From contig NZ_JACJQY010000026.1 of NCBI RefSeq assembly GCF_014696925.1, forward strand, positions 1 to 64,000: a stretch of 64,000 nt of DNA, read 5' to 3'. Each line of letters begins with the position of its first letter. Positions within the stretch are counted from its first letter, which is position 1. Origin of the DNA: Phormidium tenue FACHB-1050 (GTDB lineage Bacteria > Cyanobacteriota > Cyanobacteriia > Pseudanabaenales > Pseudanabaenaceae). Below the pieces are notes generated by a model. The model was not told the DNA's origin, did no database searches, and saw only the letters and a list, made by a program, of their open reading frames with translations. Of the stretch, positions 58,746 through 63,903 are shown piece after piece. A program made the position numbers and the translations under genes.

Positions 58746-61700
58746 TTAACTCTGGGAAATTTCAAACTCAGTAAAGACTTTGGCTTGCTCTAAGACTAGC
58801 TCTGTTGCTAGAGCTTCCATATCGGGAGGATAGCCATATTGACGGAGTAAACGTTTCACAGCAACTTTCATTCTGGCTCTGACGCTTTCCTTGAGGTTCC
58901 AGTCGATTGATGCGTTTTTACGTATGCGATCGCATAGGACGATCGCCAGTTCTCGTAATTTATCAACGCCCATAACTTCTTGAGCGCTTTGATTGTTGGC
59001 AAGAGCATCGTAAAAAGCTAGTTCGTAGGGTTCTAGTTTTAATTCTTCACCTCTTGCTTGAGATGCCTTAGTGTCCTTTGCCATGTTCAGCAATTCTTCG
59101 AGGATATCGGTAACGCTGATGACTTGATTACGATAGCGGCGTAGGGCATCTTCGAGAAGATCGGCAAGTTTGCGGCTTTGGACAATGTTGGTACGGCTAC
59201 TTGCTTTGATTTCATCCTTGAGCAGTTTTTGCAGAAGTTCAACGGCGAGGTTTTGATGTTCCATGCCCCGCACTTCTGCCATAAATTCATCGGAGATGAT
59301 TGATATATCAGGGCTTTTTATTCCTGCTTCATCAAAAATATTAATCACTGCATCAGATACGAGAGCCTGATCTACGACCTGACGGATCGCGGTTTCGATG
59401 TCGTGGTTGCTGAGATTTCCGCCTTCTCCTTCGCCTGTAAGTTTACGGAGACTGGCTTGGATGGCTTGGAAAAAGGAGATTTTCTCAGAGGCGGCGATCG
59501 CTTCGGGATGGGGGACAGCTAAGGAATGAGCTTTAGATAGGGCGTTAAGTTCAGAGAAAAACCGATCTTTAATCGTGGGAGTAGCGACATAGTTGGCGGC
59601 GTTTTTGAGGATGTTGAGCTTTTCGCCCGTGCTGCTGTCGAAGTAATGCTCATAGGCAAAGTCCGCCATGATCTGCTCGACTATTTCTAGTTTGGCAAGC
59701 ATTAGCCCCACGGCTACATCTTGATTGAGGGTGAGATCGCCTTTACCGCCACTGTTGGCATAAAAGGATAGAGCTTTTTTGAGTTCGGCGGCGAGTCCGA
59801 GATAGTCCACAATTAAGCCGCCTGTTTTCTCAAAGAAGACACGGTTAATGCGGGCGATCGCTTGCATGAGGTTATGACTTTTAAGCGGCTTGTCGATATA
59901 CATCGTGTGCAGACAAGGGGCATCAAATCCCGTTAGCCACATATCGCAGACTATGACCAGTTCGAGGGAGTTTTCGGGGTCTTTGAGGCGTTGGGCTAGG
60001 GTTTGACGGTTGGCTTTGTTGGTGTGGTGTTTGACCAGATTTTCTTCATCGGAGGCATTGGCAGTGAAAACGACTTTAATTTTGCCTGTGGTCAGCTCGT
60101 CGCTGTGCCAATCGGGACGGAGTCTGACGATCGCATCGTAGAGATTTACAGCAATTCTGCGGGTCATGGTGACGATCATCGCTTTACCTTTGTTGACCTG
60201 TTGCCGCGCTTCAAAGTGGGTCACGATATCTTGGGCGATTTGTTGGAGTCGTTGGGTTGAGCCGACGATCGCTTCAATCCTAGTTTGGTTCGCTTTGGCT
60301 TGTTCCCTCTCCCCTAGCCCCTCTCCCAAAGGGAGAAGGGAATCGAGGTCTTCGTCTAGTTCATCGAGGAGTTGACGACCTGTTTCGTCGAGGTCAACTT
60401 TAACAAGGCGACTTTCGTAATAAATGGGGACGGTTGCACCATCGGCAACGGCTTGGGAGATGTCGTAAATGTCGATGTAGTCGCCAAAAATGGCGGGGGT
60501 ATTTTTATCGCTTTGTTCGATCGGTGTGCCTGTGAAACCGACAAAGCAAGCATTGGGTAGGGCATCACGAATATATTTAGCGAATCCGTAGCGGGTAGCT
60601 TTGCCTGTGATGTTGCCATTTTCATCTTTGATATCGACTTGTTTGGCGGTGAATCCATACTGGCTACGGTGTGCCTCATCAGCAAGGACGATGATATTGG
60701 CGCGATCGCTAATTTTTGGATAGAGACTTTCACCATCGGCAGGGGAGAATTTCTGGACGGTGGTAAAGATAATCCCGCCTGAGTTGGTGTTGAGCAGTTG
60801 ACGCACTCGATCGTGATTATCTGCTTGTTGTGGGTCTTGTCTGAGGAGTTGCTGACAACCTGCGAAGGTGTCGAATAGTTGATCGTCGAGGTCATTGCGA
60901 TCGGTCAGCATAACCACAGTGGGATTATTGAGGTTTGGGTCTAAGACCAGTTTTCCTGCGAGAAATACCATTGAGAGGGATTTGCCGCTTCCTTGGGTAT
61001 GCCAAATTACGCCGCCCTTGCGAGGGTTGCCTTCTTGTAAGGACAAATTGCCCTCTCCCCTAGCCCCTCTCCCAGTGGGCGAGGGGGACAAACTACCCTC
61101 TCCCCTAGCCCCTCTCCCAGTGGGCGAGGGGGACAGGAGATCTAGTAGGTTTTGGAGGACGGTTTCTAGGTTTTGGGAGATTTCTTGATTGGTGAATCTT
61201 AGAACTGTTAGCCCTAACGAGTTTAGATATTCACTGCGTTGGCGATCGCGTTGCTGTTGTTCTGGTTGATTGTGAATCTCGCCATCAAGTTCGATTACTA
61301 ATTTGCGATCGTGACAATAAAAATCAACGATGTAGTTACCGATCTGATGTTGTCGCCGAAATTTTAAGCCTAGAAAGCGTTTTGTTCTAACAATTTCCCA
61401 AAACACTTTTTCCGCAGATGTTTGATTTTTTCGTAATTCTCTAACTTGTTCTAACAGGGTAGTTACTGCTAATCCTCCTTTGTATCCCAAATTTTCGATA
61501 CTTTCTGCCCTCTCCCTAAATCCCTCATTTTCCCTCTCCCTAAATCCCTCTCCCAGAGGGAGAGGGACTTCCAAACTCTTGTCCCCCTCCCTCTGGGAGG
61601 GGCTAGGGGAGGGAAATCCACAAGCTTTAATGATCGATTCAACGGCTTTATTAACTGCGTAGTATTGGTGATAGGCGGCGATTTTTTTAATCGTGGTAAT

Positions 61701-62495
61701 GCTGACTATGCCAGTATTGAGGTCTTCGCTACGGGTTTTTTCAAATACGGTGAAGTGGCGGATCAGGTCTAGAAGAGTTTGTTTGTTGAGCAGTCCTGTG
61801 GTCAAGATTTCTAATTCGTTGATGTGGTTCTCAACCGTGGGTGTTTTCCATGCCGAAAAACGGTTAAAGTCGGCGGTGAGGGAACCTGCACGGGCGGAGA
61901 GTCCATCGGAAATTACTAGCAGGGCGTTGTAGGTAAATAGGCTAGGGATTTCGCTTTTGTAGGTTTGTAGTTGGTTATAGGCGGCGCGAAGGTTGGCTTT
62001 TTCATCGACGGCATTTTTTAGCTCGATGACAACGAGGGGCAAGCCGTTGATAAAGATGACCAGATCGGGGCGGCGGTTGTGGTTATCTTCGATGACGGTA
62101 AATTGATTAACTACTAGAAATTCGTTGTTATCGATGTTGTGCCAGTCGATCGCTTTGACGGGTTCACCTCTGGTTTCGCCGTTTTTCTGATATTCAACGG
62201 TGATGCCTTCGGTGAGGTATTTATGGAATATTTCGTTGTTGTTGAGTAGGTCGGAACTGGCAATATTAAAGATTTCCCGTTGGGCTTGGTTGAGGGCATC
62301 GGCGGGAATGGTGGGATTAAGGCGATGGATCGATTGTTGTAATCGGTCTTTTAAAACCACATCACCGAAGTTTTCGCGCTCTTGGTCTTTGCCTTCGGGT
62401 TGGAGGTCGTAGCCGTGATGGTAGGCATAACCGAGGGTTTGCAAGAGTTGCAGTTGGTATTGTTCGATCTCATCTTCGGTGAGGGTTGATTTCAT
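58746..62495 (-). CDS. hsdR: Type I restriction enzyme HsdR with in-frame DUF559 nuclease insertion
   Basis: A 1249-residue restriction subunit. The N-terminal PD-(D/E)XK nuclease domain is seen in RRPDLVIFINGLPLVVIELK (D144, E158-L-K160). The SF2 motor has Walker A HTQGSGKS (about 499-506), ADEAHRSQYG, FTGTP and QAIARINR. Between them, residues 294-492 are not part of the family core. They hold a complete DUF559 domain (about 345-452; D391, E402-L-D404) bounded by Gly/Arg/Glu/Pro-rich segments translated from CCCTCTCCCC repeats. A further repeat-derived segment (LLPLGEGLGEREQ) lies at about 718-731. The frame stays open. HsdR loops on and cuts DNA when HsdS/HsdM meet unmodified sites; whether this version is active is uncertain. 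Confidence 0.9.
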   Translation of the reverse strand: MKSTLTEDEIEQYQLQLLQTLGYAYHHGYDLQPEGKDQERENFGDVVLKDRLQQSIHRLNPTIPADALNQAQREIFNIASSDLLNNNEIFHKYLTEGITVEYQKNGETRGEPVKAIDWHNIDNNEFLVVNQFTVIEDNHNRRPDLVIFINGLPLVVIELKNAVDEKANLRAAYNQLQTYKSEIPSLFTYNALLVISDGLSARAGSLTADFNRFSAWKTPTVENHINELEILTTGLLNKQTLLDLIRHFTVFEKTRSEDLNTGIVSITTIKKIAAYHQYYAVNKAVESIIKACGFPSPSPSQREGDKSLEVPLPLGEGFRERENEGFRERAESIENLGYKGGLAVTTLLEQVRELRKNQTSAEKVFWEIVRTKRFLGLKFRRQHQIGNYIVDFYCHDRKLVIELDGEIHNQPEQQQRDRQRSEYLNSLGLTVLRFTNQEISQNLETVLQNLLDLLSPSPTGRGARGEGSLSPSPTGRGARGEGNLSLQEGNPRKGGVIWHTQGSGKSLSMVFLAGKLVLDPNLNNPTVVMLTDRNDLDDQLFDTFAGCQQLLRQDPQQADNHDRVRQLLNTNSGGIIFTTVQKFSPADGESLYPKISDRANIIVLADEAHRSQYGFTAKQVDIKDENGNITGKATRYGFAKYIRDALPNACFVGFTGTPIEQSDKNTPAIFGDYIDIYDISQAVADGATVPIYYESRLVKVDLDETGRQLLDELDEDLDSLLPLGEGLGEREQAKANQTRIEAIVGSTQRLQQIAQDIVTHFEARQQVNKGKAMIVTMTRRIAVNLYDAIVRLRPDWHSDELTTGKIKVVFTANASDEENLVKHHTNKANRQTLAQRLKDPENSLELVIVCDMWLTGFDAPCLHTMYIDKPLKSHNLMQAIARINRVFFEKTGGLIVDYLGLAAELKKALSFYANSGGKGDLTLNQDVAVGLMLAKLEIVEQIMADFAYEHYFDSSTGEKLNILKNAANYVATPTIKDRFFSELNALSKAHSLAVPHPEAIAASEKISFFQAIQASLRKLTGEGEGGNLSNHDIETAIRQVVDQALVSDAVINIFDEAGIKSPDISIISDEFMAEVRGMEHQNLAVELLQKLLKDEIKASSRTNIVQSRKLADLLEDALRRYRNQVISVTDILEELLNMAKDTKASQARGEELKLEPYELAFYDALANNQSAQEVMGVDKLRELAIVLCDRIRKNASIDWNLKESVRARMKVAVKRLLRQYGYPPDMEALATELVLEQAKVFTEFEISQS
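60305..60341. repeat. CCCTCTCCCC-type repeat inside hsdR
   Basis: CCCTCTCCCCTAGCCCCTCT, then CCCAAAGGGAGAAGGGA, translated in hsdR as LLPLGEGLGEREQ. Also found at 61051, 61096, 61531, 61582, 63761 and 63828. Confidence 0.8.
61051..61135. repeat. Two identical 40-bp tandem repeats in hsdR
   Basis: Both copies read CCCTCTCCCCTAGCCCCTCT, then CCCAGTGGGCGAGGGGGACA, separated by AACTA. Together they are translated as two copies of LSPSPTGRGARGEG. A nearly identical copy lies outside the gene at 63761-63800. Confidence 0.85.
61531..61613. repeat. Two diverged CCCTCTCC-type repeats on the other side of the DUF559 module
   Basis: TCCCTCTCCCTAAATCCCTC, then TCCCAGAGGGAGAGGGA (61531-61567), and an inverted copy ending GGGAGGGGCTAGGGGAGGGA (61582-61613). 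Confidence 0.75.
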
Positions 62496-62498
62496 GGT

Positions 62499-63689
62499 TT
62501 ATTCCTTAACGCGGAGTTGACCGCTCATTAGTTTTGGTAATAGAGAATCACGGGTTTTAGTTAGGGTTTGAATTTGTTGTCGAATAACACTTATTTTCTG
62601 TGACCAAGCATTATAAAAGCCGCTAAATTTTTCGATTTGTTTTTTTAAAGGAATTATGCACTCAAAATCTTTTATTTGTTGACCGCTAATATGTGGAATT
62701 GAAGTGCCTGTTTTGATGAAATCAACATACTTTTCAAACCTATTATTCATTAGTAAAATGTTTATATAGCCTTGAGTATGCTTGTCTTTTGTTCTAAGTC
62801 TTGCGACTCTCTGAGCCAAAATTAATGGCAAATCAGAATCTAGAATAATTGTTCTATTCCTACCAACTCTTGAACCATCCATGCCTATTACATAATCATT
62901 TACGGACAAGAAATAGTCTGTGTATGAATCTAGATCATATTCCCATCTTTTTTCTGTATCCCATCTCAAAAAACCTAATGAGACATTTTCACCTCTAACT
63001 ACCTTAATCCCTGAGTTAAAACTATACAATTCACTCTTGAATGGATATCCCATAAATACTTCTACAATATCCCCCAATTTCCCAACTTTCCAACCTTCGG
63101 GAATATCGCCGATCGCAGAGGCAACCATCGCACCACCAGATGATTTATAGGGCTTACCGTCTGCATTAGGAAACTCGAAATCTATAAACCAATGCTTAAA
63201 GATCGTCTGCGCTATTTGCTCCAAAGTCTCATTTTGTCGCCTCAAGTTTTCAATCTTTGCATCAAGACAAGATAAAACATCAGCAATTTGTTTTTGTTCC
63301 GTTGTTGATGTAGGAAATTTTATATTAAGTGTATGTATATGATTTCTATTTAGCGTAGGATTAGCGGAACCACAATCATATTGTCCTAAATTTAAAGTTT
63401 TCAAGAAGTAGTAAGCAAACTTAGGATGATTCCCATGAAAATCTTTAACCCATAGTGTTGTATCTGTAGCCCAAAATCGTTTTTCAGAATAAAAAACTGT
63501 TCCAAGTGTTCCCTTTCTTCCTATAACAACTCCGTGTGATTCAACCTTATATTCATTATGTTTGCCACCAAAACCAGATGAAAATATAACATCATATATT
63601 CCATCTTCGACCATTTGCTTTTTTGTAATATCAAAACCTCTTTGAAATGTTAAAAAATCACCTAGTATCGTCTCCTTCCACTCACTCAT
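62499..63689 (-). CDS. hsdS: Type I restriction enzyme specificity subunit HsdS
   Basis: A 396-residue specificity subunit with two target-recognition domains (about 1-125 and 195-340), each followed by a helical conserved region (TEQKQIADVLSCLDAKIENL; PLKKQIEKFSGFYNAWSQKI). SVRQQIQTL-like coiled helices end the protein (KTRDSLLPKLMSGQLRV), as usual. It stops 4 bases before the hsdR start, so the two are co-transcribed. The TRDs are more AT-rich than hsdR, as often seen. hsdM is expected beyond the right edge of the window. Confidence 0.93.
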   Translation of the reverse strand: MSEWKETILGDFLTFQRGFDITKKQMVEDGIYDVIFSSGFGGKHNEYKVESHGVVIGRKGTLGTVFYSEKRFWATDTTLWVKDFHGNHPKFAYYFLKTLNLGQYDCGSANPTLNRNHIHTLNIKFPTSTTEQKQIADVLSCLDAKIENLRRQNETLEQIAQTIFKHWFIDFEFPNADGKPYKSSGGAMVASAIGDIPEGWKVGKLGDIVEVFMGYPFKSELYSFNSGIKVVRGENVSLGFLRWDTEKRWEYDLDSYTDYFLSVNDYVIGMDGSRVGRNRTIILDSDLPLILAQRVARLRTKDKHTQGYINILLMNNRFEKYVDFIKTGTSIPHISGQQIKDFECIIPLKKQIEKFSGFYNAWSQKISVIRQQIQTLTKTRDSLLPKLMSGQLRVKE

Positions 63690-63759
63690 AACTCAAAATT
63701 CAACCTTTACTATTTCCTTAAAACCCAAAACAAAAAACTTTTAACTCAGCGATTATTTG

Positions 63760-63867
63760 CCCTCTCCCCTAGCCCCTCTCCCAGAGGGCGAGGGGGACAA
63801 GAAAAGCCAAGAAAAAATAAATTACTCCCCTTCTCCCTTTGGGAGAGGGGGCAGGGGGGAGAGGGCA
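63760..63867. repeat. Pair of inverted CCCTCTCCCC-type repeats upstream of hsdS
   Basis: One copy at 63761-63800 matches the hsdR copies at 61051 and 61096 almost exactly. A diverged, partly inverted copy follows at 63828-63867 (CTCCCTTTGGGAGAGGGGGC). They lie in a gap with no gene (63690-63903). Confidence 0.8.
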
Positions 63868-63903
63868 GGTCATAACAAAATACAATCCTGCAAAACGCGA
63901 TAC

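Follow-up and report, generated by a model that had tools for sequence, protein, structure and literature searches.

The closest described counterparts of the locus reported here are the REP/REPIN sequences with their RAYT enzymes (TnpA_REP, REPtrons). Cyanobacteria commonly have RAYTs as well as intragenic REPs (PMC3733652, PMC6006769). As in those systems, high-copy paired palindromic hairpins flank the gene of a nuclease thought to spread them, and the repeats are sometimes intragenic and in frame. The enzyme here, however, has a DUF559 domain of the PD-(D/E)XK, Vsr-like kind rather than HUH/Y1, the repeats lack a GTAG foot, and the DUF559 element lies in frame inside genes together with its nuclease. 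Rickettsia palindromic elements (RPE) resemble our repeats, as do intragenic REPs, in being palindromic inserts that are translated in frame within proteins, but a nuclease-carrying form exists beside the solo form here and none is described for them in the literature searched. Vsr-like (EDxHD) homing endonucleases such as I-Bth0305I are small mobile nucleases with the same fold; unlike them, DUF559 is not found in an intron or intein, is accompanied by no Pfam splicing domain and is bounded by its own palindromes. TnsA of Tn7 is likewise a PD-(D/E)XK nuclease, used in transposition, but it acts with TnsB and TnsC, whereas the present element has one 106-residue domain and no partner gene. A link between DUF559 and such repeats was not reported in the open-access literature that we searched, subscription journals being mostly outside its coverage.

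The DUF559 unit of hsdR is a recent in-frame insertion

The window is a 64,000-nucleotide stretch of Phormidium tenue FACHB-1050 (contig NZ_JACJQY010000026.1). The features that concern us are:

58746–62495, minus strand: hsdR, type I restriction subunit and host gene, 1249 residues (Pfam HSDR_N, SWI2_SNF2, T1R_D3, T1RH_C and DUF559)
60305–60339, minus strand: solo palindromic repeat in frame in hsdR, coding LLPLGEGLGERE, without nuclease (repeat comparison)
61041–61619, minus strand: in-frame insertion made up of left repeats, DUF559 and right repeats; site empty in the G001 orthologue
61041–61085, minus strand: right-end palindromic repeat, copy 1, coding SPSPTGRGARGEG (repeat comparison; absent in G001)
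61086–61130, minus strand: right-end palindromic repeat, copy 2, in tandem (repeat comparison)
61134–61451, minus strand: DUF559 nuclease domain, residues 349–454, PD-(D/E)XK/Vsr-like fold (Pfam, residue conservation, predicted fold)
61508–61613, minus strand: left-end REPIN-like repeat, two hairpins with CCCTCCCCTAGCCCCTCCCA and GGGAGAGGGATTTAGGGAGAGGG, coding FPSPSPSQREGDKSLEVPLPLGEGFRER (sequence comparison)
62499–63689, minus strand: hsdS, type I specificity subunit, same operon as hsdR (Pfam)
63750–63870, strand ".": REPIN-like inverted-repeat pair between hsdS and the next gene (repeat comparison)

DUF559 (PF04480) is matched in HsdR with 125.8 bits against a curated cut-off of 20.6 (E 8.6e-37) and sits between the N-terminal nuclease domain and the ATPase. 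A preliminary description, made from sequence alone, had claimed a full DUF559 domain with D391 and E402-x-D404; this held, and H408 joins the candidate active-site residues. Also upheld was its claim of repeats on both sides, which are palindromic, GC-rich and of a CCCTC type at both ends. The two identical 40-bp downstream repeats it described are indeed two repeats, but were measured as 45-bp units that are 96% alike, and the near-identical copy it placed outside the gene at 63761 was confirmed at 63750–63794 (89% alike). It did not record that the upstream repeat belongs to a different subfamily of the same repeat, and it missed the solo in-frame repeat at 60305–60339. The CCCTCTCCCC 10-mer occurs six times in the window versus 0.06 expected, and 0 of 100 shuffles reach six; a chance origin of the repeats is ruled out by shuffles together with the within-locus controls given below. 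The insert contains no transposase gene, its coding content being DUF559 and repeat-coded linkers only. Pfam finds no protein-splicing (HINT) domain in HsdR or the other hosts scanned, and Rfam returns only weak, sub-threshold and clearly spurious miRNA/sRNA matches to the repeats.

We compared hsdR orthologues in 97 related genomes. In a genome of the same genus (G001), whose hsdR is 95–96% identical, residues 1–292 are joined to 485–1247 with nothing between. The site is also empty in G015, G047, G063, G081, G026, G079, G085 and others, and is filled in G012 and G017. Because so close an orthologue joins cleanly without it, the DUF559 unit is a recent in-frame insertion. Insert-free homologues join at residue 292/about 485, approximately as the preliminary description had proposed (294 and 492). 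It had also held that a DUF559 domain at this place in most HsdR homologues would refute a recent insertion; most lack the domain, and the proposal is not refuted. DUF559 as an ancient HsdR domain is ruled out by the empty sites in most orthologues.

A second hsdR site, at about residue 220, carries a solo repeat in G012, G017 and G015 and none in the window's gene or G001. Two in-frame sites are polymorphic independently of each other within one genus. The left repeat of the G012 insert is expanded in tandem, and the hsdR of G017 (L042) is frameshifted by the loss of one base close to where its DUF559 insert ends, so that the insert site is in flux. No clear target-site duplications were seen by eye at the hsdR site or in two cassette alignments.

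The nuclease itself is under purifying selection: dN/dS is 0.09–0.14 among the hsdR copies and 0.04–0.49 in other pairs. Among 161 sequences, at least 99% retain each of residues D43, E54, D56 and H60 of the domain (the D, E-x-D and H positions), from which nuclease activity is inferred. The predicted fold (pLDDT 87.5) is best matched by 3hrl (Z 15.3), a DUF559 structure without assigned function, followed by the homing nuclease I-Bth0305I (Z 11.4, rmsd 2.6, 90 residues aligned) and Vsr (Z 10.9); the match to TnsA is weak (Z 7.5, rmsd 3.4, 95 aligned). Proteins of the Toxoplasma and Tetrahymena mitochondrial ribosomes show the same fold (Z 9–11), which we take to be, probably, the known Vsr-like RAP domain.

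Palindromic repeats are paired with DUF559 in bacteria and archaea

For each DUF559 locus, the 400 bp before the domain were compared with the 400 bp after it, a shared repeat being a Smith–Waterman score of at least 36; shifted pairs within the same loci served as controls (440 pairs for the cyanobacterial set). Matching repeats lie on both sides in 83% of 77 cyanobacterial loci versus 4.5% of controls, and in 65% of 75 loci from other phyla and archaea versus 2.4%. After thinning to below 70% amino acid identity, the figures are 79% versus 5.9% and 70% versus 2.7%, respectively, and standalone DUF559 genes alone have paired repeats in 68% (cyanobacteria) and 57% (others) of cases. The pairing of DUF559 with such repeats is thus general across bacteria and archaea. 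The flanking repeats follow the CCCTC-CCCTCTCCC-GGGAGAGGG pattern even in lineages as distant as Methanophagales, Brocadiaceae, Nitrospira and Elusimicrobia. The CCCTC-type motif occurs 1–17 times per genome in 15 distant genomes, in many cases as two inverted copies separated by about 400 bp, and the reversed motif pattern has no match in these 15. Elements with inverted ends measure 410–512 bp (median about 448). High copy number is a feature of the repeats in cyanobacteria, not in the 15 distant genomes. Separately, three Bacteroidetes loci (L133, L141 and L158) have long direct repeats around DUF559 (score 200–389) that are possibly duplicated flanks.

Could these be ordinary REPs moved by RAYT (Y1/HUH) transposases, with DUF559 a passenger between two copies? 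In favor of this view are the abundance of intragenic REPs and RAYTs in cyanobacteria noted above and the presence of Y1_Tnp in 218 of 291 genomes. Against it, when 33 RAYT/Y1 loci were run through the same flank test as a positive and negative control, 19 had flanking repeats, which belonged to the GTAG kind wherever they could be read, but none of the 33 had type A or type B repeats, the types that accompany DUF559, on both sides. No Y1_Tnp match was found in G192 or G194, with 152 and 120 type-B repeats, and neither Y1_Tnp nor RAYT in G017 or G024, with 41 and 85 type-A repeats. The DUF559–repeat pairing also recurs across phyla. By eye, the repeat consensus sequences have no GT[AG]G hairpin foot. 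We consider the passenger explanation very unlikely; RAYT as the mobiliser of these repeats is excluded as far as sequence can exclude it.

Repeat type is coupled to DUF559 lineage, and cassettes have moved as a unit; both are shown by comparison. Changes between types A and B number 6 on a tree of 157 DUF559 domains, whereas 300 shuffles gave 21.3 on average and never fewer than 16; the tree rests on a short alignment (107 columns) and many forks are unresolved. Genomes in which DUF559 has B flanks contain a median of 10 type-B repeats versus 0 elsewhere (p 1e-5), and those with A flanks a median of 19.5 type-A repeats versus 2 (p 6e-4), counts that include a few contributed by the DUF559 flanks themselves. 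Repeat abundance is modestly associated with strong DUF559 presence (type B, OR 6.9, p 2e-6; type A, OR 3.0, p 0.001); these odds ratios rest on counts read by hand, are confounded by relatedness and are not relied on alone. Several repeat-rich genomes lack a strong DUF559, among them G007 (62 type A) and G229 (109 type B), and for these a mobile-element reading requires loss of the nuclease.

Near-identical REPIN–DUF559–REPIN cassettes were found in four genomes, with outer flanks that differ, some pairs sharing one side. Cassette L219 matches L235 in its left flank and L206 in its right, a mixture that could stem from recombination at the repeats. G236 has three copies, 89–94% alike, at separate places. 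Their shared unit does not stop at the repeats but continues as far as an outer inverted repeat, AGTACAGGACAAAACT, and the exact ends of the element are therefore unsettled.

Host genes of DUF559 and of solo repeats

The window's genome (G000) has six DUF559 matches. Three of them lie within the reading frames of large restriction–modification (R-M)-type genes and share the repeat-coded linkers; the hosts are HsdR, an MmeI-like enzyme and a methylase-type protein with an NPPW motif. One is standalone, between a DNA methylase-like gene and a type III R-M helicase-like gene, and is flanked by a different repeat family built on the same two-hairpin plan. Type A repeats occupy about 115 sites in this genome, most of them inverted pairs that span about 110 bp. 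Solo repeats lie in frame in the genes for Mfd, LeuRS, a CobQ-like protein, LigA, MnmE, an MmeI enzyme, HsdM, an AMP-ligase and a hydantoinase.

Several further observations were made in this genome. LeuRS, LigA, MnmE and Mfd (L012, L020, L022, L011) are housekeeping genes. An HsdM-type neighbour gene just past the window's end (L029, G000:C19:65175) has an in-frame solo repeat near its C-terminal end. The 1661-residue open frame of a methylase-type gene (L004, G000:C36:18600-26900) holds, besides a DUF559 element, no fewer than two additional in-frame REPIN pairs; with three further pairs on the same contig, at 22.8, 25.0 and 26.8 kb, this is a repeat hot spot. Some solo repeats (L014, L016 and L021) are nested in a larger inverted repeat (TGATGTTACGTGGAA...TTCCACGTAACATCA), possibly reflecting nested or composite elements.

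Across the whole set, 62 of the 66 embedded DUF559 domains with a recognisable host are in R-M genes: HsdR (18), HsdM (12), MmeI-like (11), Eco57I-like (9), type ISP (6), HsdS (3) and DUF1156 (3). DUF1156 proteins are counted as R-M here. The four other hosts are LeuRS, MetH, AcsA and a HisA fusion. The AcsA insert puts 163 residues in place of 6 of 2p20, and the MetH insert places 140 residues between positions 1057 and 1061 of 9ssp; both are clean and in frame. The LeuRS, MetH and AcsA copies (L122, L146 and L159) are from Bacteroidetes and form a clade separate from the R-M-embedded one. Solo repeats differ in host from DUF559 copies (3 of 10 in R-M genes in the window's genome, p 1.5e-5), a comparison limited to few solos and one genome. 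DUF559 ORFs of about 1090–1200 residues may include old helicase fusions.

The R-M bias is a point against a mobile-element reading, as it also fits a domain with a job in R-M proteins. In that alternative, DUF559 is a functional extra nuclease of HsdR, HsdM, HsdS or type IIG proteins that spread with their operons, the repeats being mere linkers. Consistent with it are the 62 of 66 hosts, purifying selection on DUF559, and a supported clade of 31 type I-embedded copies that covers many phyla, with a single favored site in HsdM at about position 235 of the N6_Mtase profile. It is opposed by (i) the absence of DUF559 from most orthologues, one of them 95–96% identical; (ii) the several different insertion sites in HsdR; (iii) the occurrence of the same family standalone between repeats, or within AcsA, MetH and LeuRS and (iv) conservation of the repeat DNA beyond what linkers need. 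Moreover, HsdR, HsdM and HsdS copies are intermixed in one clade across phyla, indicating that DUF559 has moved between these genes. We regard the alternative as unlikely.

A proposed nuclease-encoding mobile element

Our preferred reading, which we consider likely (probability roughly 0.72), is that the hsdR insert is a copy of a nuclease-encoding mobile element of roughly 440 bp that inserts in frame, and that the dispersed palindromes are its non-autonomous form. Mobility is shown comparatively; DUF559 as its driver is inferred. The element would be a gene for a DUF559 nuclease of the Vsr/homing-endonuclease fold with GC-rich palindromic REPIN-like ends. By nicking or cutting either the palindromic ends or the targets, DUF559 may spread both the nuclease form and the solo repeats; no cleavage or transposition has been observed. 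Since the repeats can be read in most frames (4–5 of 6 are open), the element can sit in frame within a gene, where it would become an extra domain of the host protein joined by Pro/Gly/Ser/Arg linkers. Special selection for stop-free repeat frames is unsupported, their openness being mostly about that of shuffled sequence. R-M genes may be favored because an added nuclease is tolerated or used there. The favoring of R-M genes, the outer repeats and the repeat-rich genomes without strong DUF559 are not accounted for by this reading.

The preliminary description had proposed a mobile nuclease cassette that enters genes in frame, and this is supported; whether the cassette is tolerated or used as an extra restriction nuclease is undecided. 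It had added that the link would fail if repeats were absent near other DUF559 genes; repeats flank most of them, and the link is not refuted.

It remains possible that DUF559 is purely a homing nuclease, cutting uninserted alleles and being copied by repair, and that solo repeats spread otherwise. The nearest characterised fold is that of a homing nuclease, I-Bth0305I, and insertion has recurred at matching HsdM and HsdR linkers across phyla. Against this, more than 100 solo repeats per genome lie at unrelated sites and track DUF559 type, and cassettes also occur at unrelated intergenic sites.

A bolder form of the mobile-element reading, on which we find the evidence evenly balanced, makes DUF559 the nuclease dedicated to moving a new class of mobile elements. 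Each would be about 440 bp long, with a 106-residue Vsr-like nuclease between palindromic ends, and would be accompanied by high-copy non-autonomous palindromes. If this is true, few self-encoding DNA elements would be smaller, and these would spread across bacterial phyla and archaea and survive inside essential genes through in-frame translation.

The mobile-element reading gives a concrete, testable role to a widespread nuclease family of unknown function. It offers a candidate mobiliser, unrelated to RAYT, for a large class of orphan palindromic repeats, and a route by which proteins, essential enzymes among them but chiefly restriction–modification enzymes, may gain new domains in frame.
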